DNA of 64,000 nucleotides. Origin: Nitrospirota bacterium. GTDB lineage: Bacteria; Nitrospirota; Thermodesulfovibrionia; Thermodesulfovibrionales; UBA6898. Position 1 is the first letter of the stretch. The number at the start of each line of letters is the position of its first letter. The translations under genes and the position numbers were made by a program. The notes under the pieces were generated by a model. It had not been told where the DNA came from. It did not search any database and was given only the letters and a program-made list of their open reading frames with translations. The stretch is taken from NCBI GenBank assembly GCA_016214855.1, contig JACRMT010000004.1:186001-250000 (forward strand), read 5' to 3'. Positions 11,613 to 43,550 of the stretch are shown here, piece after piece.

Positions 11613-11632
11613 AGCATAAGTAATGGGCATGA

Positions 11633-11956: not shown

Positions 11957-11968
11957 TTTTTATAGGCA

Positions 11969-11995: not shown

Positions 11996-12014
11996 CTTTT
12001 GAGCCTTCCTTTTC

Positions 12015-14036: not shown

Positions 14037-14037
14037 C

Positions 14038-14319: not shown

Positions 14320-14409
14320 TGTTCCTCCTTCTGTAATTTCGTAATGTTTTACTCTCCCCTAAGCACATCCCTAAAACCCTTCCCTTGCACCACCTCCTTC
14401 TCTTTACTG

Positions 14410-16991: not shown

Positions 16992-17014
16992 AAACTGTGC
17001 AACTTATATGCCTG

Positions 17015-17029
17015 ACAATTTTGTTGCCA
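17015..17029 (-). promoter_or_regulatory. Sigma-54-like -24/-12 element
   Basis: On the minus strand TGGCA (17029-17025), then TTGT ending at 17015, with the canonical spacing between the GG and the second element. It matches TGGCAC-N5-TTGC except for T in place of the last C. The predicted start of transcription at about 17003 leaves a 12-nt leader before TTG 16991, which is short. An enhancer-binding regulator is encoded next door. Confidence 0.45.
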
Positions 17030-17086
17030 TTTATGCTATTGATTTTAAATGATAATTTGCAAAAGCTGGATATCATGACGAGCAAA

Positions 17087-17104
17087 TTACAGGTCAAATT
17101 GTAA
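17087..17104. promoter_or_regulatory. Inverted repeat TTACA-N8-TGTAA, possible activator site
   Basis: 18-bp inverted repeat about 60 bp upstream of the -24 element, where enhancer sites for NtrC-type activators usually lie. A second TTACA/TGTAA pair occurs at 17176. Confidence 0.4.
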
Positions 17105-17175
17105 CTTATTGTATCTATTTATTAAATTTTATTAATTCTCCTATTAATTCAATTAGTTAGACTGGCATAGTTAAA

Positions 17176-17188
17176 TTACAATATGTAA
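17176..17188. promoter_or_regulatory. Inverted repeat TTACA-N3-TGTAA, possible activator site
   Basis: 13-bp palindrome with the same half-site as 17087-17104 but a different spacer; about 150 bp upstream of the -24 element. Confidence 0.35.
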
Positions 17189-17361
17189 CAACATGCATGC
17201 ATAACGGTAACATTCCCAAATTTATCATTATTACTAAATAGTTAGGATGCTAATTTACTTGCTATTCATAATGCTGAATTGACTCGTTGATAATGCTGAT
17301 TTTAGATGAATAGGTAATAATAAATTCAGAAGAAGGGGAGCCAGACAGAAACGATGACCTG

Positions 17362-18708: not shown

Positions 18709-18723
18709 TATTGATCACCCGGC

Positions 18724-19962: not shown

Positions 19963-19992
19963 CGTTACCCTCCTTGCAATGATTTATCTGTA

Positions 19993-22941
19993 TTATGGTT
20001 CTAAAGGGAGCGAGATGGTGAAGGTCGTGCCCTCACCTTTTTTGCTTTTTACGTTTATCGTTCCGTTGTGCTCCCTGATTATACCATAGCAGATACTGAG
20101 ACCAAGTCCGGTCCCCCTGCCGAGCGGTTTTGTCGAAAAGAAGGGATCAAAGATCTTTTCCATCACCATCTCATCAATACCATACCCAGAATCCCGGATA
20201 ACAATAACAATATTTTTCCCCTCTGTATTCATCCCGATCCAGAGGCTGCCGCCTTCCGGCATTGCATCAAGGGCATTAATGATGAGATTCATCAACACCT
20301 GCTGTATCTGGTCAGGATTGACCTTTATGGCCGGCGCTGCTCCGATCTCCAGGGAAAGTTCTATGCCTCTGAAACGGTTATCATAACGCACAAGATTCAG
20401 CGTCCTGTCGAGGATCTCGCTGATGCTGCAGAGCACTTTTTCCTTGGTAGAGATACGGGCAAAATCGCCGAGGCTTCTTACGATCCTGGCTATCCGTTCG
20501 ATATGGTTGTTGATGGTAGAGAGGCTGTCGCTGAAGAACGCTGCTTCGCTGTGGGATTCTGCCGGAATGGATCGCAGTTCCTGCACCAGAGACGATATCG
20601 AAGCGAGGGGATTGCCGATCTCATGGGAAATACCGGCAGTCAGTTTACCGATGCTGGCGAGCTTTAATGCCTGCAGGAGCTGCTCCTCCATCTTCCGCTT
20701 GTCCGTAATATCCTCAAAGATGACAACAAATCCTCCGGAAGGGTCGGTAAAAGGATTGATATCGATCTTGAAGTACTGCTGAGAAGGAGTGTGGAGAGTA
20801 ACCTCCCGCTTCTCGCTCTTTTCAAAGGTATTGACACTTATCCAGGGCAGCAGCGTGGTGATCCTTCTATTAGCCGCGTCAGCCCTTCCGATGCCGGTGA
20901 TCGCTTCCATCTCTTTGTTCCAGTAGGTCACCCGCTTTGCCGCGTCGATCGTCACAATGCCGGCAGGAGCGCTTTCGATGATATTTTCACTGAACTCTTT
21001 GAGGTAAGCCAGGCTCCGGTTGGCTTCCTGGAGTTCCTGCCGCGAGAGCCTCAGCGTGGCTGTCATCTCTTTGATGGAACGGGAAAGATCTCCTCTCTCT
21101 TTTTCTGTGATAAGGAGTTTGTCCTCCAGGATGATCGTTGCAATGGCAGAACCGAGGGAGCCAGACAGAATACGCATAGCCTCATCACGGAGCCTGCCGA
21201 GATCGAGAGGGGACAGATTTTCACGCTGCACCTGATTTCTGAAAAGGAAACCATCCACAATCTCTGCTGCGTCGCGCCGGCCTAAATACTGTTCAAGCAC
21301 TGCCTCGATCTCCTGCAATGAATAGTCGGCCCGGCCCGGCAGGGCCTGCGGAGCATAGGACTCGACAAATATCAATGCCTGACGCTCTTCCTCAGGAGAC
21401 TGCCTTGTGAGAATAGAGAGACTTACATAGAAGAAAAGATTAAAAAAAAGTCCCCAGAAGAGCGAATGGCTCCACCGGTCAAGTCCCTTTAATCCGAAGA
21501 GGGCATGGGGGTTCAGGATCGTTGAATTGAATACCATAGAGAAGAACCCCTGATCCCCGATAATGCCGGCCTTGAGCAATGCCGGCACAAGCAGCGTGTA
21601 GAACCAGACGATAAAACCCGCGGTGATCCCTGCAAGGGCGCCGATCCTGTTCCCACGCTTCCAGTACAGACCCATAATAATCGATGGCGCGAATATCGTC
21701 ATAGCCTCAAACGATTTCAGCCCTATATCAACGAGTGAATAGAACTCTCCGATCGAAACGGCAAAGATATAGCCCAAAAAAACACAGGCAAGGATTACGA
21801 TCCGCTTGAGATTCAGAATGACCCGGGGAAAACCCGTCATCGCGTTAAAACGGAAGATTGCCGGCATCACGAGACTGTTCATCACCATCGTGCTTAGCGC
21901 CAGTGATTCGACAATGATCATGCCGGTCGCAGCAGAAAAGCCGCCGATAAACGTCAGGAGCGCTATCATGGAGTTTCCCTGGCCCATCGGTATGGTCAGC
22001 ATGAACATATCGGCATCAGCCTGACTTCCGCCAAGCAGGAGACCGCCAAAAGCAACCGGCATCACAAATATATTGATAATAAGGAGATAGAGCGGGAAGA
22101 GCCACATGGCCTTTGACAGATGCCGCATGTCAGAGTTCTCCACAACAGCGACATGAAACTGCCGGGGCAGGAACATAATGGCGGTCATAGACAGAAAAAG
22201 GAGCGAGGCCCATTCCATATAACTTACCTGGGTGCCTCCTCCCAGATAGAGGAGATCTCCGTATGCCGATCCTTTTATCCTTTCAAAGATGTCCCCTATC
22301 CCTTCAAAGAGAAAATAGGTGACATAGAATCCTACAACCAGAAATGCGATAAGCTTTATGATGGACTCGAAGGCTATCGCAAAGATCAGCCCTTCATGGC
22401 GCTCTGATGCATCAAGCCTGCGGGCGCCAAAGATGATCGCAAAGATGCCGAGGAGAAAAGTTATATACCACCCGGCAGCAGCAATGCCCTTTGTCTGGCC
22501 CGAAAGAATCGTGAGAGTATTGATGATGGCCTTGATCTGCAGTCCGAGATAGGGCGTAATGCCGACGACCGCCACAAGGGTAACGAATGCAGAGAGAAAG
22601 AGCGAATTGCCGTAACGCGAGCCGATGAAGTCCGCAATCGTGGTGATCCTGTTTTCCTTTGCTATGCGAATGATCTTTTTCAGGAAAACCATCCATAACG
22701 CTGCCATCAGCGTCGGACCGAGATAGATGGTCAGGAAAGAAAAACCTGACGTAGCTGCCTTTCCCACGCTGCCGTAAAATGTCCAGGATGTGCAATACAC
22801 CGCAAGAGAGAGTGAATACACATAGGGGTTCGACACGATACTCTTCCCTATCCGCTCACGCCTCTCGGCAAAATAGGCGATCGCGAAGAGAAGACAGAGG
22901 TACCCGAGTATCAGACCAAAGACGATCCAGCCTTTAAACAT
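19993..22941 (-). CDS. SLC5-transporter/PAS/histidine kinase hybrid (CrbS-like)
   Basis: 982 residues. The first about 500 form an SSS-type transporter with about 13 helices (SLAVYCTSWTFYGSVGKAAT). A short linker and a PAS domain follow at about 640-750 (APAGIVTIDAAKRVTYWNKE). The HisKA domain has phospho-accepting His773 (SHEIGNPLA). The HATPase has N box NLIINALDAMPEGG and G boxes DSGYGIDE and GRGTGLGLSI. There is no receiver domain. The architecture is that of CrbS/MxtR kinases that control acs. In those systems the partner is a LuxR-type regulator, whereas here the nearby one is NtrC-type. Probably senses or transports a carboxylate or Na+ at the inner membrane. Confidence 0.93.
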   Translation of the reverse strand: MFKGWIVFGLILGYLCLLFAIAYFAERRERIGKSIVSNPYVYSLSLAVYCTSWTFYGSVGKAATSGFSFLTIYLGPTLMAALWMVFLKKIIRIAKENRITTIADFIGSRYGNSLFLSAFVTLVAVVGITPYLGLQIKAIINTLTILSGQTKGIAAAGWYITFLLGIFAIIFGARRLDASERHEGLIFAIAFESIIKLIAFLVVGFYVTYFLFEGIGDIFERIKGSAYGDLLYLGGGTQVSYMEWASLLFLSMTAIMFLPRQFHVAVVENSDMRHLSKAMWLFPLYLLIINIFVMPVAFGGLLLGGSQADADMFMLTIPMGQGNSMIALLTFIGGFSAATGMIIVESLALSTMVMNSLVMPAIFRFNAMTGFPRVILNLKRIVILACVFLGYIFAVSIGEFYSLVDIGLKSFEAMTIFAPSIIMGLYWKRGNRIGALAGITAGFIVWFYTLLVPALLKAGIIGDQGFFSMVFNSTILNPHALFGLKGLDRWSHSLFWGLFFNLFFYVSLSILTRQSPEEERQALIFVESYAPQALPGRADYSLQEIEAVLEQYLGRRDAAEIVDGFLFRNQVQRENLSPLDLGRLRDEAMRILSGSLGSAIATIILEDKLLITEKERGDLSRSIKEMTATLRLSRQELQEANRSLAYLKEFSENIIESAPAGIVTIDAAKRVTYWNKEMEAITGIGRADAANRRITTLLPWISVNTFEKSEKREVTLHTPSQQYFKIDINPFTDPSGGFVVIFEDITDKRKMEEQLLQALKLASIGKLTAGISHEIGNPLASISSLVQELRSIPAESHSEAAFFSDSLSTINNHIERIARIVRSLGDFARISTKEKVLCSISEILDRTLNLVRYDNRFRGIELSLEIGAAPAIKVNPDQIQQVLMNLIINALDAMPEGGSLWIGMNTEGKNIVIVIRDSGYGIDEMVMEKIFDPFFSTKPLGRGTGLGLSICYGIIREHNGTINVKSKKGEGTTFTISLPLEP

Positions 22942-30230: not shown

Positions 30231-31925
30231 ATGCCTTTTAGTTTCTTCAGGCTTCGCCGGAGCGCAAACAGGATCCGGCAGATCGTCAATGTCTTCCTGA
30301 AATATGGATTCGGCAAGGTCATAGACCAGATCCAGCTTGGCCGGTTCATTCCTTTCCGAAAGCGCATCAGGGAATTCGGACAATGGCCAGGAGTCAAGGG
30401 ACCCGGGGCTCCGGAACGCCTCAGAATGGCTTTTGCCGAGCTCGGACCGAGCTTCATAAAACTTGCACAGATCCTTTCCTCCCGGCCTGACCTCATCACC
30501 ACGCTCTACGCCGATGAATTCAAAAAACTTCAGGACCGGGTGCCGCCCTTCTCTTCTGACGAAGCCATCCGTATTGTTGAGTCCGAGATCGGCCTTCAGA
30601 TCGATATGGTTTTTACGTCGTTCGAGAAGATACCGGTGGCCGCGGCATCTATTGCGCAGGTCCACAATGCACAACTCCTTGATGGAAGCGAGGTTATTGT
30701 AAAGATCCAGCGTCCCAATATCCTTGAGCAGCTCGAGACGGACATAGGAATTCTGACCTATGCAGCGAATCTTCTGGAAAAATATGTACCCGAAAGCAAG
30801 TTCTTCAATCCGACGGGTATTGTGGAGGAGTTCTCAAGAACGGTCAGGAAAGAGCTGGATTTTGTCGAGGAAGGCCGGAACTGTATGCGATTCGCCAAGA
30901 ATTTTGCTGCAAACCCGGATGTCTGTATCCCGTCAATATATACCGATTTCTCGACATCAAAGGTCCTGGTCATGGAGCGCATCAGGGGTGTCCGCATCGA
31001 TGATATTCCCGGCATCACACAGCTTGGCCTTGACAGGAAACGATTGGCCCAGCTCGGCGTTGATTCATACTTCAAGATGGTCCTTGAGGACGGATTTTTT
31101 CATGCAGATCCCCATCCCGGAAATATCTTTGCCATGCCCTCCGGCTCAATAGGCTTTATGGACTTCGGCATGGTAGGCAGAGTGACGCCTGAGCTCCGTG
31201 AAACCATGGCAAATACATTTCTCGCGCTCATCAACAAGGATTTTGACGGACTCATCGACCACTATCTCGAGCTCGGCGTTATTCCTGAACATGTGGATCT
31301 GGATGCCTTCAGAAAAGAATTCAAGGCTGACCTTTCAGATTTTCTCGAACCGCTCTACGGCAAGTCGATCAAAGAGATCAATTTTGCCGAGTATCTTGAT
31401 ACGGTGACCCATCTTGCGATCAAGCACAAGATGAAAATTCCGTCTGACCTGCTCCTGGTCAACAAGGCAATGCTTACGCTTGAGAACCTGGGCAGGGAAC
31501 TGGATCCTGACTTTGACTTCATTGCAGCCGCAGAACCCTATGCCTCCAGGATCATCAAGGAACGCATGAGGCCCGGCAAGATCTTCGACAAGGCACGCAA
31601 GAATGTGATGGATCTGAGCGAGTTTGCCCTTGTATTCCCCAAACAGATCCGGCAGCTCATTCAGAAGACCCTGCGCGATGACCTGCATGTAAAGATGACC
31701 CATATCGGCCTTGATCGACTGATCCGCGACATGGACCGGTCAAGCAACCGCATAGCGTTCGGCATGATCATCAGCGCCATTCTGCTCAGTTCTGCAATCA
31801 TGCATGCCACCGGAGCAGGGCCCACAGTCATGGGTTTTTCCCTCTTAGGCATGTCCGCCTTCTTTTTTGCTCTTCTTCTTGGTATCTGGCTTATCATCTC
31901 GATCATCCGTTCAGGGCGTCTTTAA
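30231..31925 (+). CDS. UbiB/ABC1-family atypical kinase
   Basis: 564 residues. ADCK/UbiB kinase-like fold at about 50-430 and two C-terminal transmembrane helices (about 508-527 and 534-558). The family's KxGQ motif reads KLAQ here (GPSFIKLAQILSSRPDL). Other motifs are AAASIAQVH, the catalytic-loop-like FHADPHPGNIF and the DFG-like FMDFGMVG. The family supports quinone or isoprenoid-lipid metabolism through ATPase activity; the substrate in this organism is unclear. Co-transcribed with the phasin-like gene. Confidence 0.9.
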   Translation: MPFSFFRLRRSANRIRQIVNVFLKYGFGKVIDQIQLGRFIPFRKRIREFGQWPGVKGPGAPERLRMAFAELGPSFIKLAQILSSRPDLITTLYADEFKKLQDRVPPFSSDEAIRIVESEIGLQIDMVFTSFEKIPVAAASIAQVHNAQLLDGSEVIVKIQRPNILEQLETDIGILTYAANLLEKYVPESKFFNPTGIVEEFSRTVRKELDFVEEGRNCMRFAKNFAANPDVCIPSIYTDFSTSKVLVMERIRGVRIDDIPGITQLGLDRKRLAQLGVDSYFKMVLEDGFFHADPHPGNIFAMPSGSIGFMDFGMVGRVTPELRETMANTFLALINKDFDGLIDHYLELGVIPEHVDLDAFRKEFKADLSDFLEPLYGKSIKEINFAEYLDTVTHLAIKHKMKIPSDLLLVNKAMLTLENLGRELDPDFDFIAAAEPYASRIIKERMRPGKIFDKARKNVMDLSEFALVFPKQIRQLIQKTLRDDLHVKMTHIGLDRLIRDMDRSSNRIAFGMIISAILLSSAIMHATGAGPTVMGFSLLGMSAFFFALLLGIWLIISIIRSGRL

Positions 31926-32053: not shown

Positions 32054-33049
32054 CTATTGAAGCTTTAAGACGTCACCGCGCTTAAGGGTTCCATTGCCTG
32101 AACTCATATATCCGACAGAAAACTTATCCTGCACATCGCGCACTTCAACCGTGCCTATGAGTTTTTCATCAGCGCCAAGTTTCAGGCCGGTCTCAGGATC
32201 TACAAGGTCTTCTCCCAGTGCATAGGCGTACATCTTCGTGCCAGGCCTTATATTCATATTCGAGCCAATATTGATGTAGATCTTCTTGCCATCTATTTTG
32301 ACAACCTTTGCAGTGAACGGGACGGTTTCCATGGTGTTAACAATAAAATTCACCGCTTCCTCAATAGCCTGTCTTGTTGCCTGGCCTATCGGCGCATTCT
32401 TGAAGGAATCTGCACCAAAGTCGACCATGCCGCGGGAAACCCCAACCGCTATTCCGGATGATTCAGCCTTGCCGACTGAATTGTGTGACGTCAAAACCTG
32501 GCCGCTTGTAGCGTCAATCAGGCGGATATCTATGCCGACATGGGCGTTGGACGATTTACCCCCAATCCTGAAGCCACCGTACCCGATCCCCCCGCCACCG
32601 CCTGATTCGGCCTGCTCGAATTCGGAAACAACACCACGTATCAGGATCTGCGCACCGAGCACCTGACCAACCTTTGCCTGGGTCTCTTTTTTGATAATGC
32701 CGGTCTGCCCGAGTTCCTGCTCGCCAAGGACTTCCTGCAGCGCCTGGCGTTCTACGACCACAAAGCGGTTGGTTTTGATCAGCGCAGTAGCCAACTGATC
32801 AGCCATGCCCTCACCAATGTTCCAGCTTCCATAGGTTCCCTTTACCTTATTTTCGAACTTGGTAACTGCAATACGCTTTTTGGGTCCGGTATAAGTCCCG
32901 GATCCAGTGCTCTGAACAGGCGCTTTTTTTGCCGGCTTACTGTAATCACTCTCCTGCTGATCTCCTGCCGTCGAATCATATGCAAATGAAACAGGGGCAA
33001 AACCTGACATGAAAACCACAACCATTGATAATAATAAAAGTTTTCTCAT
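32054..33049 (-). CDS. CsgG-family exported protein with FlgT-C-like end
   Basis: 331 residues. Signal peptide (cleavage near SFA/YDS) without a lipobox Cys, then a CsgG domain at about 58-245: RIAVTKFENK, GMADQLATALIKTNRFVVVE, LGAQILIRGVVSEF. A C-terminal small beta domain at about 250-331 (IDGKKIYINIGSNMNIRPGTKM.. GTVEVRDVQ) resembles FlgT-C. CsgG proteins form outer-membrane secretion channels or periplasmic assemblies. The missing lipidation Cys argues against a standard curli channel. It is the last gene of the nine-gene envelope operon, 94 bp after the FecR-LPP20 gene. Confidence 0.82.
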   Translation of the reverse strand: MRKLLLLSMVVVFMSGFAPVSFAYDSTAGDQQESDYSKPAKKAPVQSTGSGTYTGPKKRIAVTKFENKVKGTYGSWNIGEGMADQLATALIKTNRFVVVERQALQEVLGEQELGQTGIIKKETQAKVGQVLGAQILIRGVVSEFEQAESGGGGGIGYGGFRIGGKSSNAHVGIDIRLIDATSGQVLTSHNSVGKAESSGIAVGVSRGMVDFGADSFKNAPIGQATRQAIEEAVNFIVNTMETVPFTAKVVKIDGKKIYINIGSNMNIRPGTKMYAYALGEDLVDPETGLKLGADEKLIGTVEVRDVQDKFSVGYMSSGNGTLKRGDVLKLQ

Positions 33050-33143
33050 TTCCTTCCTCCTGACTCTTTATGATAACACTGAAATGCCTGCATACCATGA
33101 CAACCCAAACAAATTACAGGGTCGGTCAATATTAGGGCTGCTA

Positions 33144-34115
33144 TTACTTCTCAATCTGTTCGAGAAACATCCTTCTGAACCCGATTCCCAGGGCAAGCTC
33201 CATATCAACTTCCATTGTGCCGTCAGCAAGTTCCCTCTCCTCAGAGATCCAGGCGCCCTTTATAAAGGAATCTACACGGGACTTGATCGTATCATGTTTT
33301 GTCACAAAATCACGGATACTGGTATCAGAAACGATAGTGACACCGGAGACCTGCTCAGCAAGGTTTCTCATGGCATCAACTTTTGCCGCTCGCAATGCCA
33401 TAAGCCGCGCCTGTGCAGGATTCACGGAGCCGGGCGGTGGTATGCCGCTTCCGGTTGCCTTGAGCAACTTAGGACCCCAGCGTTCTTCCGGCTCGAGCGT
33501 CTCATCATAAAATCTCTTTATAAGATCAGGATTGGTTCTGGTCGCAATAACCGGCGGTTTTCCGATCTCAACATAGCTTGTTCTTCCGGCCGGAACAAGG
33601 ATCTTCTTATCAGGAGCAGCGTTGATCTCACTCAGATCGACCCTGCCCTCAGTGACCGCAAGGCCGGTTTTGGTGCCTTCTACCCAGACGAGATACGATG
33701 TGCCGCGTGCAGCGGTTACTGCAGACGGAGTCCTCACCTCGAACTTCGACTTGCCAACGATCACGTTCATCACGCCATCGATCAGATTAAATACCGATAT
33801 ATTTTTGCTGCCCCTGATATACTCTGTCACAACAAAGCTTGTATTTTCACCAACCATGACTACCGAATCATCAATAAAAAGAAGCTTGGCCCTCGATTTT
33901 CCGGCAGTCCTGACCGTGTCTGATCCGAAAACAGGTTCATTTTTCTGCGCCTCATTTTTCTGTTTTTCTCGCAGAATATAGGCCGTCCCCCTCAGTTCAC
34001 GGATATTGCCGACCTCTTTCAAGGCAGCAGCCGTTTCTCCACGAGCCAGCGGCACGATGAAGATGGCAACCACAAAGATACTGAAACTTTTTTTTAAAAA
34101 CCGCAAAAAATGCAT
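33144..34115 (-). CDS. FecR-domain/LPP20-domain exported protein
   Basis: 323 residues. Signal peptide with core FSIFVVAIFIVPLA, a FecR domain at about 40-165 (GTAYILREK.. FGSDTVRTAGKSRAKLLFIDD.. VRTPSAVTAARGTSY), and an LPP20 domain at about 235-320 (QARLMALRAAKVDAMRNLAE, DFVTKHDTIKSRVD). The start ATG 34115 lies 2 bp after the stop of the preceding gene, which fits better than an upstream ATG overlapping that gene. The FecR part probably binds a polymer or partner; the LPP20 part is shared with four other domains in this operon. Confidence 0.82.
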   Translation of the reverse strand: MHFLRFLKKSFSIFVVAIFIVPLARGETAAALKEVGNIRELRGTAYILREKQKNEAQKNEPVFGSDTVRTAGKSRAKLLFIDDSVVMVGENTSFVVTEYIRGSKNISVFNLIDGVMNVIVGKSKFEVRTPSAVTAARGTSYLVWVEGTKTGLAVTEGRVDLSEINAAPDKKILVPAGRTSYVEIGKPPVIATRTNPDLIKRFYDETLEPEERWGPKLLKATGSGIPPPGSVNPAQARLMALRAAKVDAMRNLAEQVSGVTIVSDTSIRDFVTKHDTIKSRVDSFIKGAWISEERELADGTMEVDMELALGIGFRRMFLEQIEK

Positions 34116-34117
34116 AT

Positions 34118-34621
34118 TCAATTTCTGTAACAACCTTTCTCCGGCACAAAGTAATACCCAGGAGGGCAGGACCTTCCCCGTCTCCATTTCAGCCCGAAAG
34201 AAGGAGAGCGGAATCCTGAACGATAAAAAGAAGATCCCCCTCTATAACAGTATTCATATGCCCCTGCATAAGGATTATAGCAGAGAGGATATTGAGTTAT
34301 ATCATACTTGGGCTCAACTTCAGGAATTTGACTGCCAGGAGTGGCCTGATACTCTCTCGGTTGAGGGATTGCGTAAAAATTGTCATCCGGTGATCTCTGC
34401 CGGGACCATGGCCCCTGATTCTGAAAGTCCTCGCCAAGCCTGTCTGCTTTTTCGATATTGTCAGAATTCCTTTCGTGCAGAGTATCTGCTTCGCAATAAA
34501 CGAGACACGGGGGGATGAAACAGAAGGCCATGACAAACGCAGGCAGTAATCTCGTTTTCAGAACCCTACCCCAATACTCGGCAGTATCCATGCCATAATG
34601 TCCAGTGATCATCAACGTCAT
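34118..34621 (-). CDS. Small exported protein of unknown function
   Basis: About 167 residues. The ATG at 34621 overlaps the stop of the 1393-residue protein gene (ATGA), suggesting coupling. An internal start at 34591 would put the hydrophobic stretch (LLPAFVMAFCFIPPCLVYC) closer to the N-terminus as a signal peptide and is also possible. The mature part is Pro/Tyr/Arg-rich: YPLCYNPYAGAYEYCYRGG, then SCPPGYYFVPEKGCYRN with paired Cys. No family recognised. Confidence 0.65.
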   Translation of the reverse strand: MTLMITGHYGMDTAEYWGRVLKTRLLPAFVMAFCFIPPCLVYCEADTLHERNSDNIEKADRLGEDFQNQGPWSRQRSPDDNFYAIPQPREYQATPGSQIPEVEPKYDITQYPLCYNPYAGAYEYCYRGGSSFYRSGFRSPSFGLKWRRGRSCPPGYYFVPEKGCYRN

Positions 34622-37600
34622 CTCAGACCTGTTGTACAGGCCAGACTCTTGGGCGCCGAGAATTTTACTACGGGAACCCTGCTCCATGAATCCGGGGTAT
34701 AGTCCCATTTACACTCCGCAAGCTTCTGCCCGTTTCTGCCTGCTATGAATTTGACATATCCTCCGCCTTTTGGAACCTTGATGCTGACCTTTTTCTTTTC
34801 CCCCGGGAGCAGCTTATTCTGTGGACCAAAATTATCCTGGCCATCAGCAAATATATGGACATTCTCACCAGCTCTGTTTTCGAGCTCAGCTATAACTTCA
34901 CCAGTCCCGCCAGCAGTCGTTCCGAGCCCTGCCCTGTAGCCTTCATCGAATCCGCTGTACAAACATGAGCCCCATCCCTTCTGTGTGTCCCTGTTCATAT
35001 GCCCCTGAGAAGCTGCTTTACATTCAGTGCTCATCGTACCCTTATTCTGTTTTGCCTTCTGCCCGCACTTAACCCCTTCCTGGTATGCAGCCTGCTTCTG
35101 TGATGCGTCGCAGTTCACTTTTGAAGAGCTGCTGCTGTCCCCTCTGCTGCCATTGCCATGATCTCCCCGATCTCCTCTGTCCCAACGATCTCCACGGTTT
35201 TTTGTCCAGTCAGTCCAATCTTTTCCGGGGGTTCTATTGTCATCAATATAAGGAGGCGAATAAGTATTTTGACTGCTGGAAGAGTCATCCGGCTTTCTGG
35301 TATTACCCGTATATGTCTCAGATTGTGCAACCGGAGGTGACTGTTTGTCCTTAGGCGATTCTTTCTGTTTGACGCCCGTTTGATCGCCTTGGAATTCATT
35401 GCCGATCTTGTCTACCGCAGCAACGTCGACTATTTTATTGCCGGGTTCTGTAATGTTTATATCATCCAGTGGATTATATCCCTTATCGCTCTGATATGAA
35501 GCACTACCTTTAATTACCTCTATAATTGCGGTTGCAGGTTTCACATTTTTCTTTAAGTACTCCTCAGTATCTTCGCCTGTATCGATATATTTACTGTATA
35601 TCCACCGGGGATTAGAAACACCGCTGTAATATGCGGTCACGGTAAATTTCCTGCCGGGCATTACATCTTTATTTATATTCACCGCAAATAACTTCTCCCT
35701 GCCCCATTTTTCAGGTTTGCTGATGCGTGTTAAAGATGCGCCACTGTCTGAGGGTTCTATCATGAAGGTTGTCGCAGACGGCGCTTGAATAATATATTCC
35801 ATCTTGTCTGAATTCATATTTTTATGTTCATAGGTAAATAACAAGGGTTGGCTTTGCTCTCCCGGTGGTAATTTCAATTTAAGCGGTGAGATAGAAGTCT
35901 CCGGTTTAGTGCCGATTACAATTATTTTGCTTTGCCCGATCCTGACGGAGGTTTTTACCGGAGGTTTTGATGTCGTCTCGCCGATAACAGTCAGCACAAT
36001 GCTTCCTGTGGCCCTTCTTCCGCCTGCATCGGTTACATCTGCAGTCACCGTATACTCGCCTGGCGAGGATGCACCCACAAAAGGCACCTTGCCACCCTGA
36101 TCACCAAGCCCCTGCGCATGGCCACCCCACCGTAAGATATAGGGAGGCTTATGATTTTGAACATTAATATGAACATATGTCCTCTCATTCAATTTAAGTT
36201 GGGTCTTGTCTGCCCTCAGTGCCACAGTCATTTTCGACTCGGCCTTAGGCTTATTCTCAACAGTCTTCTCCTTGACCGGTAGCACATCAAGTGAGACTTT
36301 CCTTGAATCACTCTCCCCGCATGAATCCACTACGGTAACGTAAAAGTTGTTGCCTCCCGGTTTTTCAGTCTGATAGTTGATGTTGAACCCCCTCGCCTCG
36401 GACTGCTGGGTATAGGAGTAGTCACCCGTCATGTCAGCTGAAAACGGCGGCTGGCCTCCCTTTATCGACAAATTTAGTATCACCCTTCCGCCGACTGCAA
36501 CTTCTTTTTTGTCTGCACTGAATTCAAGGACAAGAGGCTTCTCATCCTTCTTTGCCCCATCAAGGATGCCTTTGATCTTCTCCTGCTGACAATCGCAGAG
36601 CCCCGGCTTCGAAAGCAGCTTTTCGGCATTCCTGACCGCGCGGGTATCACAGATGACCGGCGCTGAATTTTTCTTCAGCTCCTCCTGATTGATATAGGGG
36701 GACCTTCGAAGGAACTTGGTGGTCTCATAATCAATCAGATCTTTCATCTCCTTTGTGTTCATTGCAGGATTATCGGCGCATGCATTCTTTGCCCTGGACA
36801 GGCTGTCCTTAAGTTCATTATAAATCTTGTCTTTTTCAGGCAAGGGGCGTGGAGTTCCTGTAGCGGTACTGATTGACCATTTTTCAGAGGAAGCAAATTC
36901 GTAGATGGTCAGGGAGTTGGCAGCAGGGGTAATCTTTTCACTATTAAGTTTGTCGCACGCACATACCCTTTTGTCCTTGATAAGGGCCTGACATACCGGT
37001 ATCTGACTTCTCAGGATCTGCCAGTCTTCCTTCCATTTCTCGAAATTTCCGATCAAGCGCTGTATGTTTTCACCGAGAGGATTAGACTTGCCCGCCTTGT
37101 AGAATTCCGCAGCCTTACGCAAAAGATAGAGGCCCTCGTCAAATTCAAATTCGGTAGCTATGTTAAGGCTTGCCTTGGACATGATAATTGCAAATTCCGC
37201 AAGGATATTTGTGGTCTCACCGGAAGCTTTTCTGTCAGGCATTACTGACTCAGCAGACCTGACAAGCCCCAGTGCCCTGTCAGGGTCGCCACGCCTGTTC
37301 TTCTCCCTGACCATCTCTGCATAGGCAGAGGGTGCATTTTCTGCAGAGACTGCAGCAAAAAGAATTGGGGCCAGGGATGCATCGTCGGGGAAATTTCCCG
37401 CCAATTGTATAGAGTGCCTGTTAATTCCAGGGTAGGTCTTTCCCTGAGAGAACCTGGTCTTATAGGCAAGGTATTCTTCAATGATACTCCGGGCCTCGCC
37501 AAGAAAATCATTGTATGCCTTAAATCTTGTCTGATAAATCTCTGTCTTGACTTCCTGCGGCTTTGCGCCAGCCGCTGCAACACACTGCTCAAAACATTCC

Positions 37601-38799
37601 CCGTCACTTCTCATATGCTCTCTCCAGCAGCCGAGGCCAAAACCGACGCAAGGACCATATCTCGCATCATCGCAGCTGGGAGAGGCATTTTTCCATGGTT
37701 TTGGGTCGTAGGTAGCACCCACGCCGATTGTCGGGTTAATAGTGCAGCGGCAAAGACAGCCGTTAAGGACGTTCAGATCAGCCTTAATAAGTGAGCTTGA
37801 GATGGCAGGAGGTTCCGGCGGCTTTTGAACGCTGTCAGTCTTCTTCGCCTGAGGGCAGTCCCTGCCAAGGGAAGCCATCATCTCATCACAGGATTTTTCA
37901 AGGAGAGGTCTTCTGTACTGATTGAGCACTCCCCGCTGAATCTCAAGCGATGCAATCTCGTAGAGGATATCTGCCCGCTCTGCAGCCTCCTGACGGGCAA
38001 ATTCAGACTCTTTATCAAAAAAAGTCTGCCACGCCGTGCTCGGATTGAGCCTGTTGTATGGCTGCTGAGGCCGATATTGCTCAAGTTTCTGACCGTATTT
38101 GACAGTTAGGCTGTTCAGCTTTTTCTCATGGGAGATAATTAATGTCCCAAGCCTCGCCTCCTCCTGATCCACACCCTCTTTCTTCATCCCCCGTGTTTTC
38201 AGAAAGATGTCATGTGCATCCCTGATGAGTTTGTTCGCCTTCCTCTGCTGCAGCTCATCCTCTACAAGTTTGCCCAATGAGACAACGGTGATAGTTGTTC
38301 CGATAACAGGGCCAAACACATATTTATCGAGGACTCTCTTGATAGCTGCTTTTACGCCAAAGCTACTCACCTTTTCGTCGCTAATAACCCATTCCCCCTT
38401 CTGACTTTCAAGAAATAGCTTGAGTTCAATTGAGGCTTCGCATGGGTTGGGAGCAGACCTGATAATTCCGGCAGCCTCTGCGTACGTGCCCTCCCTGTAT
38501 GCACCCCCCGAAGAGGCTTCTGCGAAGTTGTCAGGCAGCGGCAGACACTTCTCCTTGTACTGCTGAAGTGTGACAGCAACTAATCCGGTCGGTGATTCGA
38601 ATTGCGGGGTATCACTCTTGACGCCCGGCGATGGTGATATAGTATCTCCAGGAATCCCCCAGAGGCTCTGCGAAGGCTTGCCGGCAGGGGAGCCCTGTGC
38701 CCAGGCACCTGCTGCTGAAAAGCAGAGAACAACCAGCAGACAGGGAAGTATCAGGGCATGACTTTGAGCTTGCCTGTGAACGCGGCTCTTTCTGTTCAT
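34618..38799 (-). CDS. Giant secreted Cys-rich protein with Ig/PKD-like domains
   Basis: 1393 residues, the largest gene here and not recognised. Signal peptide (LILPCLLVVLCFSAAGAWA). A helical region at about 80-340 includes one hydrophobic stretch near 162-180. A Cys cluster lies at about 350-410 (GCLCRC, GPCVGFGLGCW, ECFEQC). Helical repeats run to about 740. Two Ig/PKD-like beta domains follow at about 755-845 and 853-940, each with a K-P-P-[YF] or QPPF bend. A beta-rich region leads to a low-complexity RGD/DRGD stretch at about 1196-1216. A final Cys-containing domain has a small beta sandwich (GENVHIFADGQDNFGPQ). Presumably the main structural or surface component of the operon (inference). 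Confidence 0.78.
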   Translation of the reverse strand: MNRKSRVHRQAQSHALILPCLLVVLCFSAAGAWAQGSPAGKPSQSLWGIPGDTISPSPGVKSDTPQFESPTGLVAVTLQQYKEKCLPLPDNFAEASSGGAYREGTYAEAAGIIRSAPNPCEASIELKLFLESQKGEWVISDEKVSSFGVKAAIKRVLDKYVFGPVIGTTITVVSLGKLVEDELQQRKANKLIRDAHDIFLKTRGMKKEGVDQEEARLGTLIISHEKKLNSLTVKYGQKLEQYRPQQPYNRLNPSTAWQTFFDKESEFARQEAAERADILYEIASLEIQRGVLNQYRRPLLEKSCDEMMASLGRDCPQAKKTDSVQKPPEPPAISSSLIKADLNVLNGCLCRCTINPTIGVGATYDPKPWKNASPSCDDARYGPCVGFGLGCWREHMRSDGECFEQCVAAAGAKPQEVKTEIYQTRFKAYNDFLGEARSIIEEYLAYKTRFSQGKTYPGINRHSIQLAGNFPDDASLAPILFAAVSAENAPSAYAEMVREKNRRGDPDRALGLVRSAESVMPDRKASGETTNILAEFAIIMSKASLNIATEFEFDEGLYLLRKAAEFYKAGKSNPLGENIQRLIGNFEKWKEDWQILRSQIPVCQALIKDKRVCACDKLNSEKITPAANSLTIYEFASSEKWSISTATGTPRPLPEKDKIYNELKDSLSRAKNACADNPAMNTKEMKDLIDYETTKFLRRSPYINQEELKKNSAPVICDTRAVRNAEKLLSKPGLCDCQQEKIKGILDGAKKDEKPLVLEFSADKKEVAVGGRVILNLSIKGGQPPFSADMTGDYSYTQQSEARGFNINYQTEKPGGNNFYVTVVDSCGESDSRKVSLDVLPVKEKTVENKPKAESKMTVALRADKTQLKLNERTYVHINVQNHKPPYILRWGGHAQGLGDQGGKVPFVGASSPGEYTVTADVTDAGGRRATGSIVLTVIGETTSKPPVKTSVRIGQSKIIVIGTKPETSISPLKLKLPPGEQSQPLLFTYEHKNMNSDKMEYIIQAPSATTFMIEPSDSGASLTRISKPEKWGREKLFAVNINKDVMPGRKFTVTAYYSGVSNPRWIYSKYIDTGEDTEEYLKKNVKPATAIIEVIKGSASYQSDKGYNPLDDINITEPGNKIVDVAAVDKIGNEFQGDQTGVKQKESPKDKQSPPVAQSETYTGNTRKPDDSSSSQNTYSPPYIDDNRTPGKDWTDWTKNRGDRWDRGDRGDHGNGSRGDSSSSSKVNCDASQKQAAYQEGVKCGQKAKQNKGTMSTECKAASQGHMNRDTQKGWGSCLYSGFDEGYRAGLGTTAGGTGEVIAELENRAGENVHIFADGQDNFGPQNKLLPGEKKKVSIKVPKGGGYVKFIAGRNGQKLAECKWDYTPDSWSRVPVVKFSAPKSLACTTGLR

Positions 38800-38847
38800 T
38801 AAATACCCCTTCCTTTGGACAGCTGTTACAGGTCTATTGCCTGAATA

Positions 38848-40029
38848 TTACTTCTCCAAAACCGCCTTTACATCTATCCTGTGGGGTGTGACATTTGTCG
38901 GCTCCAGTCTGAAACCGGTAAACTTTCTTGCTGCCAGCTCATCAGCGATATTGGATGACTTGCCGCCGTAATCAAGGGCCAGTTCGGCAACCCCTCCGGT
39001 AAAGCTCCGCTGGTGCACGGCCTTTACGCCCTGGGTCTCTTTTTCAAGGATCTTCTTGACCGCAGCAAGATGCCGGTAGGAAACCAGACCATTTATCATA
39101 ACCGTGATCTCCTGGGAACGGCCATAGACCTCGCCGCTCCACTGTTTTACGATCATCTCGATAAGTTCGTCAGAAAGTTTCTCGCTCGCCTCCTTGATCG
39201 CAAGGGCACCTCCCTGCATTTCATCTATATGCACCTGCGCCCCCTGGGCGCTCTTTGACGCTATTACCTTGCCGGTGTCAGTCCTGACAACCCTGGCCTG
39301 AAGCGTTGCCTGAATGGACTGCATATTGGTCCCGTACAGCTTGCCGCCCGCATTCTTCGAAAATGCCTTGCCGGTGATAACAACCTGGGCTCCGTATTTC
39401 AGACCCTCTGCTGCTGCAGCCTTGTTGTCGCCCTCAAGGATTCGCAATGCCTTGTCCCGTGTGATATTCGCCCTGACCGTATCTGCGTCGACCACATTGA
39501 AGCCTGAACCAAGCAGTTTCTCGATAATAGTCGATTCGGCCTGCCCGACGCTCTCCGATCCGGTCGTTCCGTATAACCCGCCCACCTTCTCATCGATGAT
39601 CACCATCACCTTCGGCTTTTCGACCATAACATGCAGCAGTCCGAGTGCGCTCAGGTCGCTCGTGAGATCGGCCCTGCCTATCTCAGCCTGCAGCCTGACG
39701 CGGTAGAGATCGCCTTCCGGACCTTCCGAGAGGATCTTGTACTTTTCGACATATCCGGATGTGCGGGCCAGGATCTTGTCATGGATAACCTTATAATTCT
39801 CGGTCATGGAATCGGAAGAGACCATAGTGCCGACCGCCTGTTCGACCGCCTTTCTCAAGGCGTCATCAATGGCCTTGTCCCTGGCAATGACCTTGTTCCC
39901 TCCAATCATTGCGGCAAACCCGTCAGCAGTGATCATCTCTGCCGCCATGGCTGCGGATACTATAATCCATAATGAAATGGCCAGAATGCCAAAAAGGATG
40001 CGCGGCGTTCTGCTGAAACTCCGGTTCAT
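38848..40029 (-). CDS. FlgT-like periplasmic protein
   Basis: 393 residues with a signal peptide ending near AMAAE. The N-terminal domain (KAIDDALRKAVEQAVGTMV; KILARTSGYVEKYKIL) resembles FlgT-N. The middle domain (VMVIIDEKVGG, ESTIIEKLLGSGFNVVD, KYGAQVVITGKAF) resembles the TolB/CsgG-like FlgT-M. FlgT builds the H-ring around the flagellar motor in Vibrio, but no flagellar genes are visible here. The C-terminal about 95 residues form a separate small alpha/beta domain with a repeated-helix look. It overlaps the LPP20 lipoprotein gene by 4 bp. Confidence 0.78.
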   Translation of the reverse strand: MNRSFSRTPRILFGILAISLWIIVSAAMAAEMITADGFAAMIGGNKVIARDKAIDDALRKAVEQAVGTMVSSDSMTENYKVIHDKILARTSGYVEKYKILSEGPEGDLYRVRLQAEIGRADLTSDLSALGLLHVMVEKPKVMVIIDEKVGGLYGTTGSESVGQAESTIIEKLLGSGFNVVDADTVRANITRDKALRILEGDNKAAAAEGLKYGAQVVITGKAFSKNAGGKLYGTNMQSIQATLQARVVRTDTGKVIASKSAQGAQVHIDEMQGGALAIKEASEKLSDELIEMIVKQWSGEVYGRSQEITVMINGLVSYRHLAAVKKILEKETQGVKAVHQRSFTGGVAELALDYGGKSSNIADELAARKFTGFRLEPTNVTPHRIDVKAVLEK

Positions 40030-40484
40030 GGGAACATTCTCCTGAACTGATAGTCGAGGATGATCTCCATCTCTATCTCGACGCTGCCGTCACTGAGATA
40101 CCGCGTATCAATCACCTTTGCACCCTTGATGTACGCATCGACTCTCGCCTTTATCGTATCATTCTGGGTGATAAAGTCCTTGACCGTAGTGCGGGATTTG
40201 ATCGTCACGCCATAGGCCTGTTCAAGCAGGTTCCTCATTGCATCGACCTTTGCAGCACGTTCGGCCATCAACCTTGCCTGAGCCTGATTAACCGCATTCG
40301 GAGGAGGTGCGCCGCCACCCTTTGCCGTAACCTTGAAGGGGACCCACTCCTCCCTTTGAACAGGCGCGTCGTACGCCGGACCAACTTCCCCGAGCGGCCG
40401 GCCTTCACGCACTTCAGACGTCTGACATCCTGCCAACGCAAACATCATTACCATCAATATCCCTGCCAAAACTCTCCTATGCAT
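40026..40484 (-). CDS. LPP20-domain lipoprotein
   Basis: 152 residues. Signal peptide and lipobox LAGC (Cys20), so lipidated. A Pro/Gly linker leads to one LPP20 domain at about 65-150: QARLMAERAAKVDAMRNLLE, DFITQNDTIKARVDAYIKGA, SDGSVEIEMEI. LPP20 is named after a Helicobacter lipoprotein; the fold is like FlgT-N. It ends with FRRMFP, as does the FecR-LPP20 paralogue (FRRMFL). Overlaps the FlgT-like gene (ATGA). Confidence 0.85.
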   Translation of the reverse strand: MHRRVLAGILMVMMFALAGCQTSEVREGRPLGEVGPAYDAPVQREEWVPFKVTAKGGGAPPPNAVNQAQARLMAERAAKVDAMRNLLEQAYGVTIKSRTTVKDFITQNDTIKARVDAYIKGAKVIDTRYLSDGSVEIEMEIILDYQFRRMFP

Positions 40485-40515
40485 AATGCCTCCTGTTAAG
40501 GTTAAAATAACTGAA

Positions 40516-41292
40516 TTATCTGTCCGGAAAAATTCTCATGAGCGGAGCCAGCTCCAGCTCTACCTCCACCTCATAGCTGCCATCGCCGAGAGCGCGTTCA
40601 GAAACGACCCTCGCACCCCGGACAAATGCATTCACGCGGGCCTTCATGTCATCGCTCTGGGTCACAAAATCCCTGACCGTCGTCTTCGACCTCAGCGTAA
40701 CGCCATAGACCTGCTCGAGAAGATTCCGCAATGCATCAAGCTTTGCCGCACGTTTACCCATGAGTGCTTTTTCTGGGGGCGACATGGAAGGATCATTGGG
40801 TTCAACCCCATTCCCCTTTGCCCGGATAACATCGTTCACAGGAGCTGCCGGTGCAGGCGCATAGCCGCGCGCAGGCTCACCGTTCGGGGCTCCATAGCCC
40901 ACTGCAGTAAAGACCTGCTGGTCATAGAGCAGGCGACGGCCCAGGATGTCCTCAACACGGCCCAGGGTTATTTCAACGGTAACCTCTGCAGTGCCGTCAG
41001 GTCTCTCGACATAGTCCACCTCGCGGGCGCCCTGTATCACCGTAGCAAGCTTGGCGCGAATAGTATCAGACTCGGTAATAAAATCCCTTACCTTGGTCTG
41101 GGAATTGATCTGAACGCCGTAAATCGTCTCACCAAGATTTCTTAAGGCATCCACCTTGGCTGCACGTTTCGCCATTAACCGCTGCTGCGGCCCTACCTGG
41201 GCTTCTGCCGCCGGTGTGGATATTGCCGTGATCAGCAGGGCGCTCAACATGTACAGGCTGCCCAGCGTGAAACATTTAATGATTCTTTTCAT
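40516..41292 (-). CDS. Tandem LPP20-domain exported protein
   Basis: 258 residues with a signal peptide (SLYMLSALLITAISTPAAEA) and two LPP20 domains at about 38-120 and 175-255, joined by a Pro/Ala/Gly linker. Copy 1 contains QRLMAKRAAKVDALRNLGE, copy 2 contains KALMGKRAAKLDALRNLLE; they differ enough to be an old duplication. The start is set at ATG 41292 because GGAGGA is 5 nt upstream; an ATG nine codons earlier lacks this. The start overlaps the upstream gene by 17 bp. Confidence 0.85.
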   Translation of the reverse strand: MKRIIKCFTLGSLYMLSALLITAISTPAAEAQVGPQQRLMAKRAAKVDALRNLGETIYGVQINSQTKVRDFITESDTIRAKLATVIQGAREVDYVERPDGTAEVTVEITLGRVEDILGRRLLYDQQVFTAVGYGAPNGEPARGYAPAPAAPVNDVIRAKGNGVEPNDPSMSPPEKALMGKRAAKLDALRNLLEQVYGVTLRSKTTVRDFVTQSDDMKARVNAFVRGARVVSERALGDGSYEVEVELELAPLMRIFPDR

Positions 41293-41794
41293 GGAGTCCT
41301 CCGTTTTGATTTTTTTCATACCTGACCAGATCCCTGATTATCAAATACCATTCATCCAGAGTAACAGATTGAGGGCCCCGCCGAACATCTGACCGTCTTA
41401 TTTCCGGACCGGCCGACAGCAAAACCGTAGTTTTCGGCACCGTCGCCGTGATTCTGATCCCCCCGTCTTTCAGATATTCCTCTTTGATAATTTTCATGCC
41501 GCTCACAATTCCTGAAAGTTCATCATAGTGTATATCCGATCCCTGTCCCTGAACGGACCTGTTTGCAAGGGCATTTCGATATGCATCTACAACGGCTGCA
41601 CGTTTCGCCATCAAATGGGCCTGAGCAACACTTTCAGCTCTGATAGGCGGGTACCCGAGGCCCTGCACTGTTGTCAACTCCGTGGTATCCTGGGCCATAC
41701 AACGCGCGCCAAACAAAAATACACTGATAATGCACATAAGAACATAAACGAACTGCTTATGGACAAAAGCTGAGAAAAAAATCGGCCGGTTCAT
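41276..41794 (-). CDS. Divergent LPP20-like exported protein
   Basis: 172 residues with a signal peptide (FVYVLMCIISVFLFGARCMA). One shortened LPP20-like domain at about 55-120 (QAHLMAKRAAVVDAYRNALA, SGMKIIKEEYLKDGGIRI) lacks the DFxTxxDTIKARV block found in the other copies. A basic tail follows. The gene overlaps its neighbours at both ends (4 bp and 17 bp), the tightest packing in the operon. Confidence 0.75.
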   Translation of the reverse strand: MNRPIFFSAFVHKQFVYVLMCIISVFLFGARCMAQDTTELTTVQGLGYPPIRAESVAQAHLMAKRAAVVDAYRNALANRSVQGQGSDIHYDELSGIVSGMKIIKEEYLKDGGIRITATVPKTTVLLSAGPEIRRSDVRRGPQSVTLDEWYLIIRDLVRYEKNQNGGLHEKNH

Positions 41795-41988
41795 CGGGCA
41801 GGTCCGACAGCACCGGAAGGCCGCTCATCATAATATGAGGGGGCAGCCCCTCCTATTGCCCCGGCTGGCTGATAAGAATCGCGGGCAGGTCCGACAGCAC
41901 CAGAAGGACGGGAATACTCCTGACAACCAGAAACACATGCCAGCAACAAACAGACTATCAAGAACTTCAATGCCGATATTCTCATCAT
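41791..41988 (-). CDS. Short lipoprotein with repeated SGAVGPAR motif
   Basis: 65 residues: signal peptide, lipobox VSGC (Cys22), then a 43-residue mature tail made of RPSGAVGPAR, QPAGAIGGA and RPSGAVGPAR. The two exact copies correspond to a near-identical DNA direct repeat at about 41798 and 41881. First gene of the envelope operon, with GGAGGATGTT before the ATG. Function unknown; perhaps a peptidoglycan or partner tether. It overlaps the next gene by 4 bp. Confidence 0.7.
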   Translation of the reverse strand: MMRISALKFLIVCLLLACVSGCQEYSRPSGAVGPARDSYQPAGAIGGAAPSYYDERPSGAVGPAR

Positions 41989-42092: not shown

Positions 42093-43550
42093 TTAAAGCA
42101 TTTTCAGGGTACTAATCAGGGCTTCAGCCTTCTTTAAGCTCTCGTAATATTCGCGTTCAGGCTCGGAATCGGCAACGATCCCGGCGCCGGCCTGTACATA
42201 TGCCTTACCCTCTTTCAGCAGGAACGTCCTGATGATAATATTGAGATCCATATTCCCGTTGTATCCGATATAGCCGATCGAACCCGTATATGGCCCCCGC
42301 CTTCTCGGCTCCAGTTCATCGATGATCTCCATACAGCGCACTTTCGGCACTCCCGTAATAGTGCCTCCCGGGAACGTTGCCCTGATCACATCAAAACAGT
42401 CCATGCCTTCCGCGAGCACGCCTCTGACGTTGGATACGATATGGATAACATGCGAGTACTGCTCGGTGATCATGAGCTCATCCACATGTACGCTCCCGTA
42501 GTCGCAGACCTTGCCCATATCATTACGCTCAAGATCGATGAGCATGATATGCTCTGCCCGCTCTTTTTCATTCAGCAGAAGCTCTGCCTTCATGTCATCG
42601 TCACCCTGCAGATCCTTTCCTCTGGGCCGCGTGCCGGCAATAGGCCGCGTATCCACAGCTCTGCCCTTGACACGAACCAGTCTTTCCGGTGAGGAACTGG
42701 CAATCTGATAATCACCAAGATCGAGATAAGCTGCAAAAGGGGACGGATTGATCCGGCGCAGGATCTCATAGACGTGCAGAGGGGGCACGCCGCCGATATC
42801 CGCAGAGAGCCGGAGAGAAAGATTGGCCTGAAATATATCTCCCGCAGCTATATAATCCTTGGCCTTTCGAACCATCGCCATATACTGCTCCATATCCGTC
42901 TCAGAAAATATGGCCGGGGTCTCCTGACCGCTGTCCCCTGATGTGATATCTGACTCACGATCGATCTGAGCAGCTATTCTCTCCATATGCTCAGCCGCTT
43001 CTCTAACGAGCTCTTCCTGAGGCCTGACGATATCTGAACGGCCGGCTGCCCTGTCGCGTGCTCCGGGGCTTATGATGATCCAGCACTTTTCCTGCATCAG
43101 GTCAAATGCGATCACACGGTCGAACATAAGGAAGTGCGCATCCGGAATATTGAGATCATCGTCAGCGATGCTCGGCAGGCTCTCAAAATACCGCACAAAA
43201 TCATAACTGAGCATGCCGGCTGCACCTCCCTGAAAAGGAGGCAGACCTTCAACGGGATCCTGAATGACAGCGGCCAGAAGTTCCCGTAAATGCTGCAGCG
43301 GTCTTCCCTGCAGAACGGTCCTTCTGCCCATACCGTTGATCTCGATGAGGCTATCCTTGACCGTGAAGATCAGATAGGGTTCAATGCCGATGAATGAGTA
43401 GCGGGAGATCTGCTCCGGACCCTTCAGACTCTCCATGAGCAGGCTGTTTTCCGTGCACACCTTCTTATACGCGTCAAAAGGGCTTTGAAAAGGGATCTCC
43501 CGGAAAACAGGCTGACAGCGAAATGCGGTCGAATCTTTTGGTGAGGACAT
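42093..43550 (-). CDS. pabB: Aminodeoxychorismate/anthranilate synthase component I
   Basis: 485-residue chorismate-utilising enzyme. C-terminal catalytic domain at about 215-485 with SSSPERLVRV, DTRPIAGTRPRG, LIDLERNDMGKV and FPGGTITGVPKVRCMEIID. The PGGTITG form is typical of PabB (4-amino-4-deoxychorismate for folate); TrpE usually has PAGTLSGAPK. PIAGT (Ala rather than the Lys of E. coli PabB) occurs in both. No glutamine amidotransferase or PabC gene is nearby to decide. Lies 18 bp after pyrF. Confidence 0.8.
   Translation of the reverse strand: MSSPKDSTAFRCQPVFREIPFQSPFDAYKKVCTENSLLMESLKGPEQISRYSFIGIEPYLIFTVKDSLIEINGMGRRTVLQGRPLQHLRELLAAVIQDPVEGLPPFQGGAAGMLSYDFVRYFESLPSIADDDLNIPDAHFLMFDRVIAFDLMQEKCWIIISPGARDRAAGRSDIVRPQEELVREAAEHMERIAAQIDRESDITSGDSGQETPAIFSETDMEQYMAMVRKAKDYIAAGDIFQANLSLRLSADIGGVPPLHVYEILRRINPSPFAAYLDLGDYQIASSSPERLVRVKGRAVDTRPIAGTRPRGKDLQGDDDMKAELLLNEKERAEHIMLIDLERNDMGKVCDYGSVHVDELMITEQYSHVIHIVSNVRGVLAEGMDCFDVIRATFPGGTITGVPKVRCMEIIDELEPRRRGPYTGSIGYIGYNGNMDLNIIIRTFLLKEGKAYVQAGAGIVADSEPEREYYESLKKAEALISTLKML

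Follow-up and report, generated by a model that had tools for sequence, protein, structure and literature searches.

What might nine consecutive genes, whose products combine modules of flagellar rings with a relative of the curli channel, assemble in the envelope of a bacterium in whose genome we found neither FlgI nor CsgF? The question is raised by a 64,000-nucleotide stretch of a Nitrospirota bacterium (GenBank assembly GCA_016214855.1, contig JACRMT010000004.1, positions 186,001 to 250,000; hereafter the window), in which nine minus-strand open reading frames (ORFs), g1 to g9, called across the window, occupy positions 32054–41988. An initial annotation had proposed from the letters alone that these genes encode a ring or secretion assembly of the outer membrane, a description that still appears to fit the sequences best, and that this assembly had not been described before. 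Accordingly worded literature searches, combining LPP20 with CsgG and optionally FlgT, found no description of such a system. The cluster is real, conserved, accessory and made of known parts, and it corresponds to no named system among the sources searched. Our tentative reading, to which we give somewhat less than an even chance, is that it encodes an undescribed outer-membrane export or display system, in which a CsgG-family pore collared by rings serves clients that carry a short internal tag. In this reading it would have spread through Nitrospirota, Desulfobacterota and Methylomirabilota in the form of an accessory operon.

The nine genes run in one direction with overlaps or short gaps, as first annotated: from g2 to g9, the spacing to the preceding gene is −4, −17, 31, −4, 48, −4, 2 and 94 nt, with four-base ATGA overlaps at g1/g2, g4/g5 and g6/g7 and an overlap of 17 nt at g2/g3. 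For g7, the start at 34621 is preferred and that at 34708 unlikely, because the former yields the ATGA overlap with g6, as it does in genome G003. A hydrophobic export-type N-terminal segment is present in all nine products, which agrees with the earlier view that all are exported, and lipobox cysteines occur in g1 and g4; both calls were made with simple rules, not with SignalP. The genes are as follows.

g1, 41791–41988, minus strand: 65 residues; outer-membrane-type lipoprotein with a repeated [SA]GA[VI]G motif (from the ORF and its orthologues)
g2, 41276–41794, minus strand: 172 residues; LPP20/FlgP-like domain in which the ring hairpin is missing, conserved C-terminal PxxVxxxEWYxII (from profile and alignment)
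g3, 40516–41292 (alternative start 41319), minus strand: 258 or 267 residues; two tandem LPP20/FlgP-type domains
g4, 40026–40484, minus strand: 152 residues; LPP20/FlgP-type lipoprotein with a g1-like GEVGPA motif close to the lipid Cys
g5, 38848–40029, minus strand: 393 residues; FlgT_N and FlgT_M-like domains with an extra C-terminal domain, LipL46-like
g6, 34618–38799, minus strand: putative exported client of 1393 residues, with an N-terminal region, a Cys-rich minidomain (348–406), an Ig/PKD-like region, the tag and a C-terminal domain
g7, 34118–34621, minus strand: putative small exported client of 167 residues, with the tag near the mature N-terminus and a Cys-rich C-terminal part
g8, 33144–34115, minus strand: 323 residues; FecR domain and C-terminal LPP20/FlgP-type domain
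g9, 32054–33049, minus strand: 331 residues; CsgG-family domain of about full profile length and a FlgT_C/TsaP-C-like C-terminal domain

Conservation in other genomes shows that this arrangement is not due to chance. With the host genome counted, 10 of 61 genomes have g5 orthologues (68–93% identity), and within the genus three of eight do; with g3 as the marker, the cluster was found in 12 of 176 genomes in this Nitrospirota order. The operon is accessory and patchily distributed. Named matches came from Nitrospirota/Nitrospirae metagenome-assembled genomes (MAGs), Syntrophus sp. GWC2_56_31, two Methylomirabilota and two Desulfobulbales-type MAGs. A survey of gene neighbourhoods, one of the checks originally suggested, found g1-g2-g3-g4-g5 arranged in this order in Nitrospirota, in Syntrophus and in a Desulfobulbaceae MAG (Desulfobacterota). 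The genes g7, g8 and g9 vary between loci, and the large proteins encoded in a slot that follows g5 and surrounds g8 differ from lineage to lineage. The most conserved member is g5, with 57–93% identity across three phyla, and the least conserved are g2, g6 and g7. The machine core probably consists of g1 to g5, usually together with g8 and g9; the idea that all nine genes form one assembly stands for this core, but g6 and g7 are tagged proteins of the variable slot and probably lie outside the machine.

The slot is occupied by g6 and g7 here and by unrelated proteins of 277–2271 residues in other genomes. A stretch of ~60 residues, which we call the tag, is nevertheless common to otherwise unrelated slot proteins (g6, with 1393 residues, and proteins of 694, 635, 2271 and 998 residues) and to the small g7. 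Its consensus is Y[DN]PxxDPN, then [IV]xxADxxGx[DE]FQ, then QPxxY, and in many large clients a PPY...GxDWTxW stretch was seen by eye to follow it. A hidden Markov model (HMM) of the tag was built from 14 sequences, including both copies given below, and searched against 786 proteins.

g6 tag, 35293–35481, minus strand: residues ~1107–1169, YNPLDDIN...VDKIGNEFQ...VAQSETY, then PPYIDDNRTPGKDWTDW; HMM match at G000:C4:221293-221478, 1.7e-22, a training row
g7 tag, 34334–34486, minus strand: IEKADRLGEDFQ...IPQPREY; HMM match at G000:C4:220334-220486, 1.4e-19, a training row

The tag lies just past the signal segment in g7 and internally in the large clients. Because both sit in the variable slot and share it, g6 and g7 look like clients or adaptors. 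Six further proteins outside the training set were found by the model (E 1.5e-5 to 1.5e-9); a match in genome G074 (E 0.008) contained two stops and was treated as noise. Two tagged genes are unlinked to the cluster, encoding a 1232-residue protein in G009 (C81) and a 279-residue protein in G032 (C15), on contigs without cluster genes in genomes that are cluster-positive. Could the tag be a linker module, copied among neighbouring genes by recombination and without any binding function? Most tagged genes are indeed neighbours, and the tag sits in Gly/Pro/Gln-rich, disorder-like sequence; however, its key positions (F, Q, QP and Y) are kept across phyla and in the unlinked genes while the surrounding linker diverges, and neither 30 column-permuted tag models nor one reversed model gave a match among the same 786 proteins, which leaves the linker explanation improbable.

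Across the order, the tag was found in 10 of the 12 cluster-positive genomes and in none of the 164 cluster-negative ones (Fisher 1e-14, a value that ignores shared ancestry). In the class to which a Desulfocapsaceae MAG belongs, it occurred in a single one of 258 genomes, and this sole carrier is the cluster-positive MAG. What is independent in the association is the pair of unlinked genes together with the lack of any stray matches. Since the shared tag was found exclusively in genomes that carry the cluster, the latter may be an undescribed system that displays or exports surface proteins.

Which structures such a system might form is suggested by the remaining genes, in which FlgT, CsgG and LPP20 modules are, as initially annotated, distributed over several exported proteins, a view upheld by sequence and by predicted fold. 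According to a 2025 study (PMC12222027), ring formation in the FlgP family accompanies an inserted hairpin that separates the SHS2 helix from the second strand. Pfam assigned LPP20 to g3 (1.2e-16, two stretches), g4 (8.5e-9) and g8 (6.6e-6), and the corresponding FlgP profile values are 2.2e-10, 6.1e-15 (with the hairpin region aligned gap-free) and 1e-13; g8 also matches FecR (7.8e-14), as expected from the earlier mention of a FecR protein joined to these modules. For g2 there is no Pfam match, and its family profile, from which 11 residues of the hairpin are missing, aligns with FlgP (1.5e-7). Altogether, five LPP20 domains (two in g3 and one each in g4, g5 and g8) align across the ring-forming hairpin, with no or minimal gaps, with the FlgP reference 9hmf, presumably the Campylobacter protein, judged by its length, whereas g2 has no hairpin. 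The hairpin-bearing domains in g3, g4, g5 and g8 thus predict, but do not demonstrate, rings of FlgP/FlgT type. The smallest member, the lipoprotein g1, looks like a lipid-tethered peptide ligand: its orthologues in Nitrospirota and Syntrophus mostly have a lipid Cys, a Pro-rich spacer and a terminal GAVGPAR, and up to three copies of this motif are seen in g1 (41791–41988) and its orthologues at loci L062, L063, L068, L069 and L070.

The FlgT modules appear to be split over two proteins, because the models of g5 and g9 both match FlgT first and CsgG next, an outcome of the structure prediction that had been recommended. No single protein holds FlgT N, M and C: N and M lie in g5 and M and C in g9. 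In g5, Pfam finds FlgT_N (1.6e-10), and the NCBIfam LipL46 model matches over its length (2.6e-19; 69.2 bits, below the equivalog cut-off of 400); the best fold match of its AlphaFold model (family alignment; predicted local distance difference test (pLDDT) 73) is FlgT, followed by CsgG, in alignment rows that mostly cover the M domain (133–303) and not the C-terminal ~90 residues. In g9, the CsgG family of Pfam (5.1e-44) covers profile positions 9–203 of 210, E. coli CsgG is matched at 2.2e-10 with the first membrane-hairpin region aligned gap-free, and the C-terminal domain resembles that of TsaP (2e-6). Both FlgT_M and FlgT_C fall below the Pfam cut-off in g9; its AlphaFold model (family alignment, pLDDT 69) nevertheless matches FlgT as a whole, first at 2.6e-16, with CsgG next at 4e-9. 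The membrane-hairpin regions of g9 are Gly-rich and of about CsgG length, and g9 is the candidate CsgG-family pore.

Such homologies invite comparison with flagella and pili. To our knowledge, FlgP/FlgT rings have been described only as flagellar parts. The H- and T-ring of Vibrio (FlgT/FlgO/FlgP, LPHT ring; 3W1E, 8Z5N) shares the FlgT_N/M/C and FlgP-type LPP20 domain types with the cluster, and Vibrio FlgT is the closest fold match of both g5 and g9, but in the cluster the modules are divided between two proteins, both with an M-like domain of their own, the genome has no flagellum, and FecR and tagged clients are added. Likewise, the FlgP basal disk of Campylobacter has in common with it an LPP20/SHS2 domain with a ring-forming hairpin and an outer-membrane lipoprotein context, but the cluster has five hairpin-bearing domains over four proteins and no motor. 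An accessory of a flagellum or type IV pilus (an H-ring, a basal disk or a TsaP-like collar around a motor or secretin) would account for the FlgP/FlgT homology and for the likeness of the g9 C-terminal domain to TsaP, the collar of the type IV pilus secretin. It would also suit some tagged clients (L099:4978-5100, L044:3400-3520) that open with a prepilin-like GFxVL segment, GFIVLALVTLALTAVIGG, in place of the usual signal peptide, according to our own reading, which has no Pfam support. However, FlgI, the P-ring protein, was not found in the host genome (3.3 Mb, 100% complete), and it is about equally common among relatives with and without the cluster (6 of 10 versus 20 of 51, P 0.3; 61 relatives), on which grounds a flagellar accessory was rejected; no flagellar or pilus genes were recognised beside the mapped clusters, and the Pfam scan found no LysM match in g9. 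The wider possibility, pilus included, is very unlikely.

CsgG is known mainly from curli and holdfast, and g9 shares with the curli system (CsgG-CsgE-CsgF, type VIII) a CsgG-family domain of channel length. A divergent system of this kind, exporting amyloid subunits, is nonetheless highly improbable. A search for CsgF (PF10614) found none in the host genome or the cluster-positive relatives, yet it detected genuine curli-type pairs of CsgF and CsgG in three further genomes of the order (G035:C1:788317-789515, G056:C49:24549-25754 and G008:C103:17565-18618), and curli were rejected on this ground. No curlin repeats were matched by Pfam in the eight cluster proteins scanned, the clients are large multidomain proteins, and g9 differs further in having no lipobox and an extra FlgT_C domain. 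With FlgI and CsgF both missing from the host genome, the cluster is neither flagellar nor curli, in line with the initial annotation, which saw no flagellar or curli genes accompanying it.

A precedent is the Caulobacter holdfast anchor HfaABD, in which the CsgG relative HfaB is needed to bring HfaA and HfaD to the surface (PMC6707917). It shows how a CsgG-family outer-membrane protein can place adhesin-like, non-curli proteins there. In the cluster, however, g9 stays below the HfaB equivalog cut-off of NCBIfam (14.2 bits versus 300), HfaA and HfaD were not recognised, and ring proteins are added. In Leptospira, g5 resembles LipL46 over its length and g8 resembles the FecR protein Lsa33/LipL45, but both fall far below the family cut-offs, and we know of no single operon of this kind that unites the Leptospira genes.

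The most likely arrangement, given about even probability, is an outer-membrane platform of rings and a pore, to which tagged clients would be recruited for export or display. The lipoproteins g1 and g4 with g2, g3, g5 and g8 would form a stack of FlgP/FlgT-type rings at the outer membrane, on its periplasmic side, and surround the candidate pore g9. Clients encoded in the variable slot or elsewhere in the genome would present the tag in a disordered-looking stretch, often followed by DWTxW, and dock through it on the platform, most likely on g5, to be exported or displayed at the cell surface. Both the binding of the tag and the surface display of the clients are inferred. We favour g5 as receptor because the g5 of a Methylomirabilota MAG is followed by a tag-like protein (HMM 0.015, weak) on a contig from which the other core genes are missing; the same genome has two LPP20-type genes on another contig.

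Several points weigh against this platform. Besides the neglect of shared ancestry in the Fisher value, much of the co-occurrence of tag and cluster is to be expected, as the cluster itself contains most tagged genes, and clearly unlinked ones number only two. The order-wide HMM search gave no tag match in the cluster-positive genomes G023 and G025, and the tag-like sequences at L071 and L074 were found by regular expression, being weak or absent by HMM. The models of g9 and g5 are of modest confidence, the candidate membrane hairpins of g9 are their least certain, low-confidence parts, and g9 has no lipobox. Moreover, at the Desulfobulbaceae and Syntrophus loci the place of a g9-type channel is taken by TPR-CsgG or LpoB-like proteins, so that a CsgG pore may be non-essential; the CsgG/LpoB-like lipoprotein of Desulfobulbaceae (L074 6280-6915) is short and has no space for membrane hairpins.

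Given the uncertain hairpins of g9 and this hairpin-less relative, the strongest rival is a pure anchor: a static scaffold at outer membrane and periplasm would hold tagged proteins, and perhaps also neighbouring RHS shells, with g9 as a non-conducting ring of CsgG/FlgT-M type, while export took other routes. The best fold match of g9, a ring protein, and the Methylomirabilota g5 beside its tag-like protein would suit it, but g9 spans the CsgG profile almost end to end, without gaps at the first hairpin of E. coli CsgG, and its FlgT_M match is below cut-off; we regard the scaffold as unlikely, if a serious contender. Exported RHS/YD-repeat proteins with DUF6531 do adjoin the cluster in Nitrospirota, Methylomirabilota and Syntrophus genomes, that is, in three phyla (L046:8805-11288, L071:13459-19311 and L070:12334-13305). 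As general cargo they were dropped, with RHS in 5 of 10 cluster-positive and 19 of 51 cluster-negative genomes; in the absence of enrichment, the adjacency is kept as a mere observation.

If the export or display platform is real, FlgP/FlgT rings would be a general, flagellum-independent module of the outer membrane that is joined with CsgG and serves tagged clients, the tag would become a key with which to search poorly cultured bacteria for surface proteins, and g5 would be a candidate receptor.

The clients themselves have unrelated architectures (PKD/Ig/SprB, carboxypeptidase-regulatory-like or small and Cys-rich); that of Syntrophus has PKD, Ig and SprB repeats, as in surface adhesins. 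The label 'Cys-rich', first given to the whole of g6, suits residues 348–406, with eight Cys, but not the protein overall, for which 28 Cys in 1393 residues is modest. A domain of ~250 residues (SCPYLYVWTGxxYxxENDIYSxAR ... EGFYIPxPxIxFA), for which no Pfam family was found, is common to Nitrospirota and Desulfobulbaceae clients (L099:4978-7182, L095:7934-9640, L074:1-3828 and L074:11298-13361).

In other families of the order, cousin clusters combine FlgT-like and CsgG-like proteins with a ~400-residue lipoprotein (CTxPEDNPxHHY) and a FlgP-like LPP20 protein, and the tag is missing; some add an LpoB-like and a 'KTLILDG' protein. This second FlgT/CsgG/LPP20 system, which could not be named, lies at L050:6784-14111, L052:9259-16923, L055:12494-17459, L058:9525-14648 and L059:9341-14970.

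Two further readings of the nine-gene cluster were discarded: anti-phage defence, for which PADLOC gave no match, and a plasmid-borne element, as 72,556 plasmids gave only one weak FlgT_N match. No RNA features and no tRNA were found in scans of the window, and promoter and terminator counts were near the shuffled expectation and uninformative. The flanking genes were named from reading of the sequence.

30231–31925, plus strand: ubiB-like gene
42093–43550, minus strand: trpE-like gene

Elsewhere in the window, positions 9530–22941 hold an acetyl-CoA synthetase, two SSF symporter-type genes (one fused to a histidine kinase), a DUF294-CBS-cNMP protein, a sigma-54 response regulator and a Na+/H+ antiporter, and look like an ordinary acetate-uptake module.

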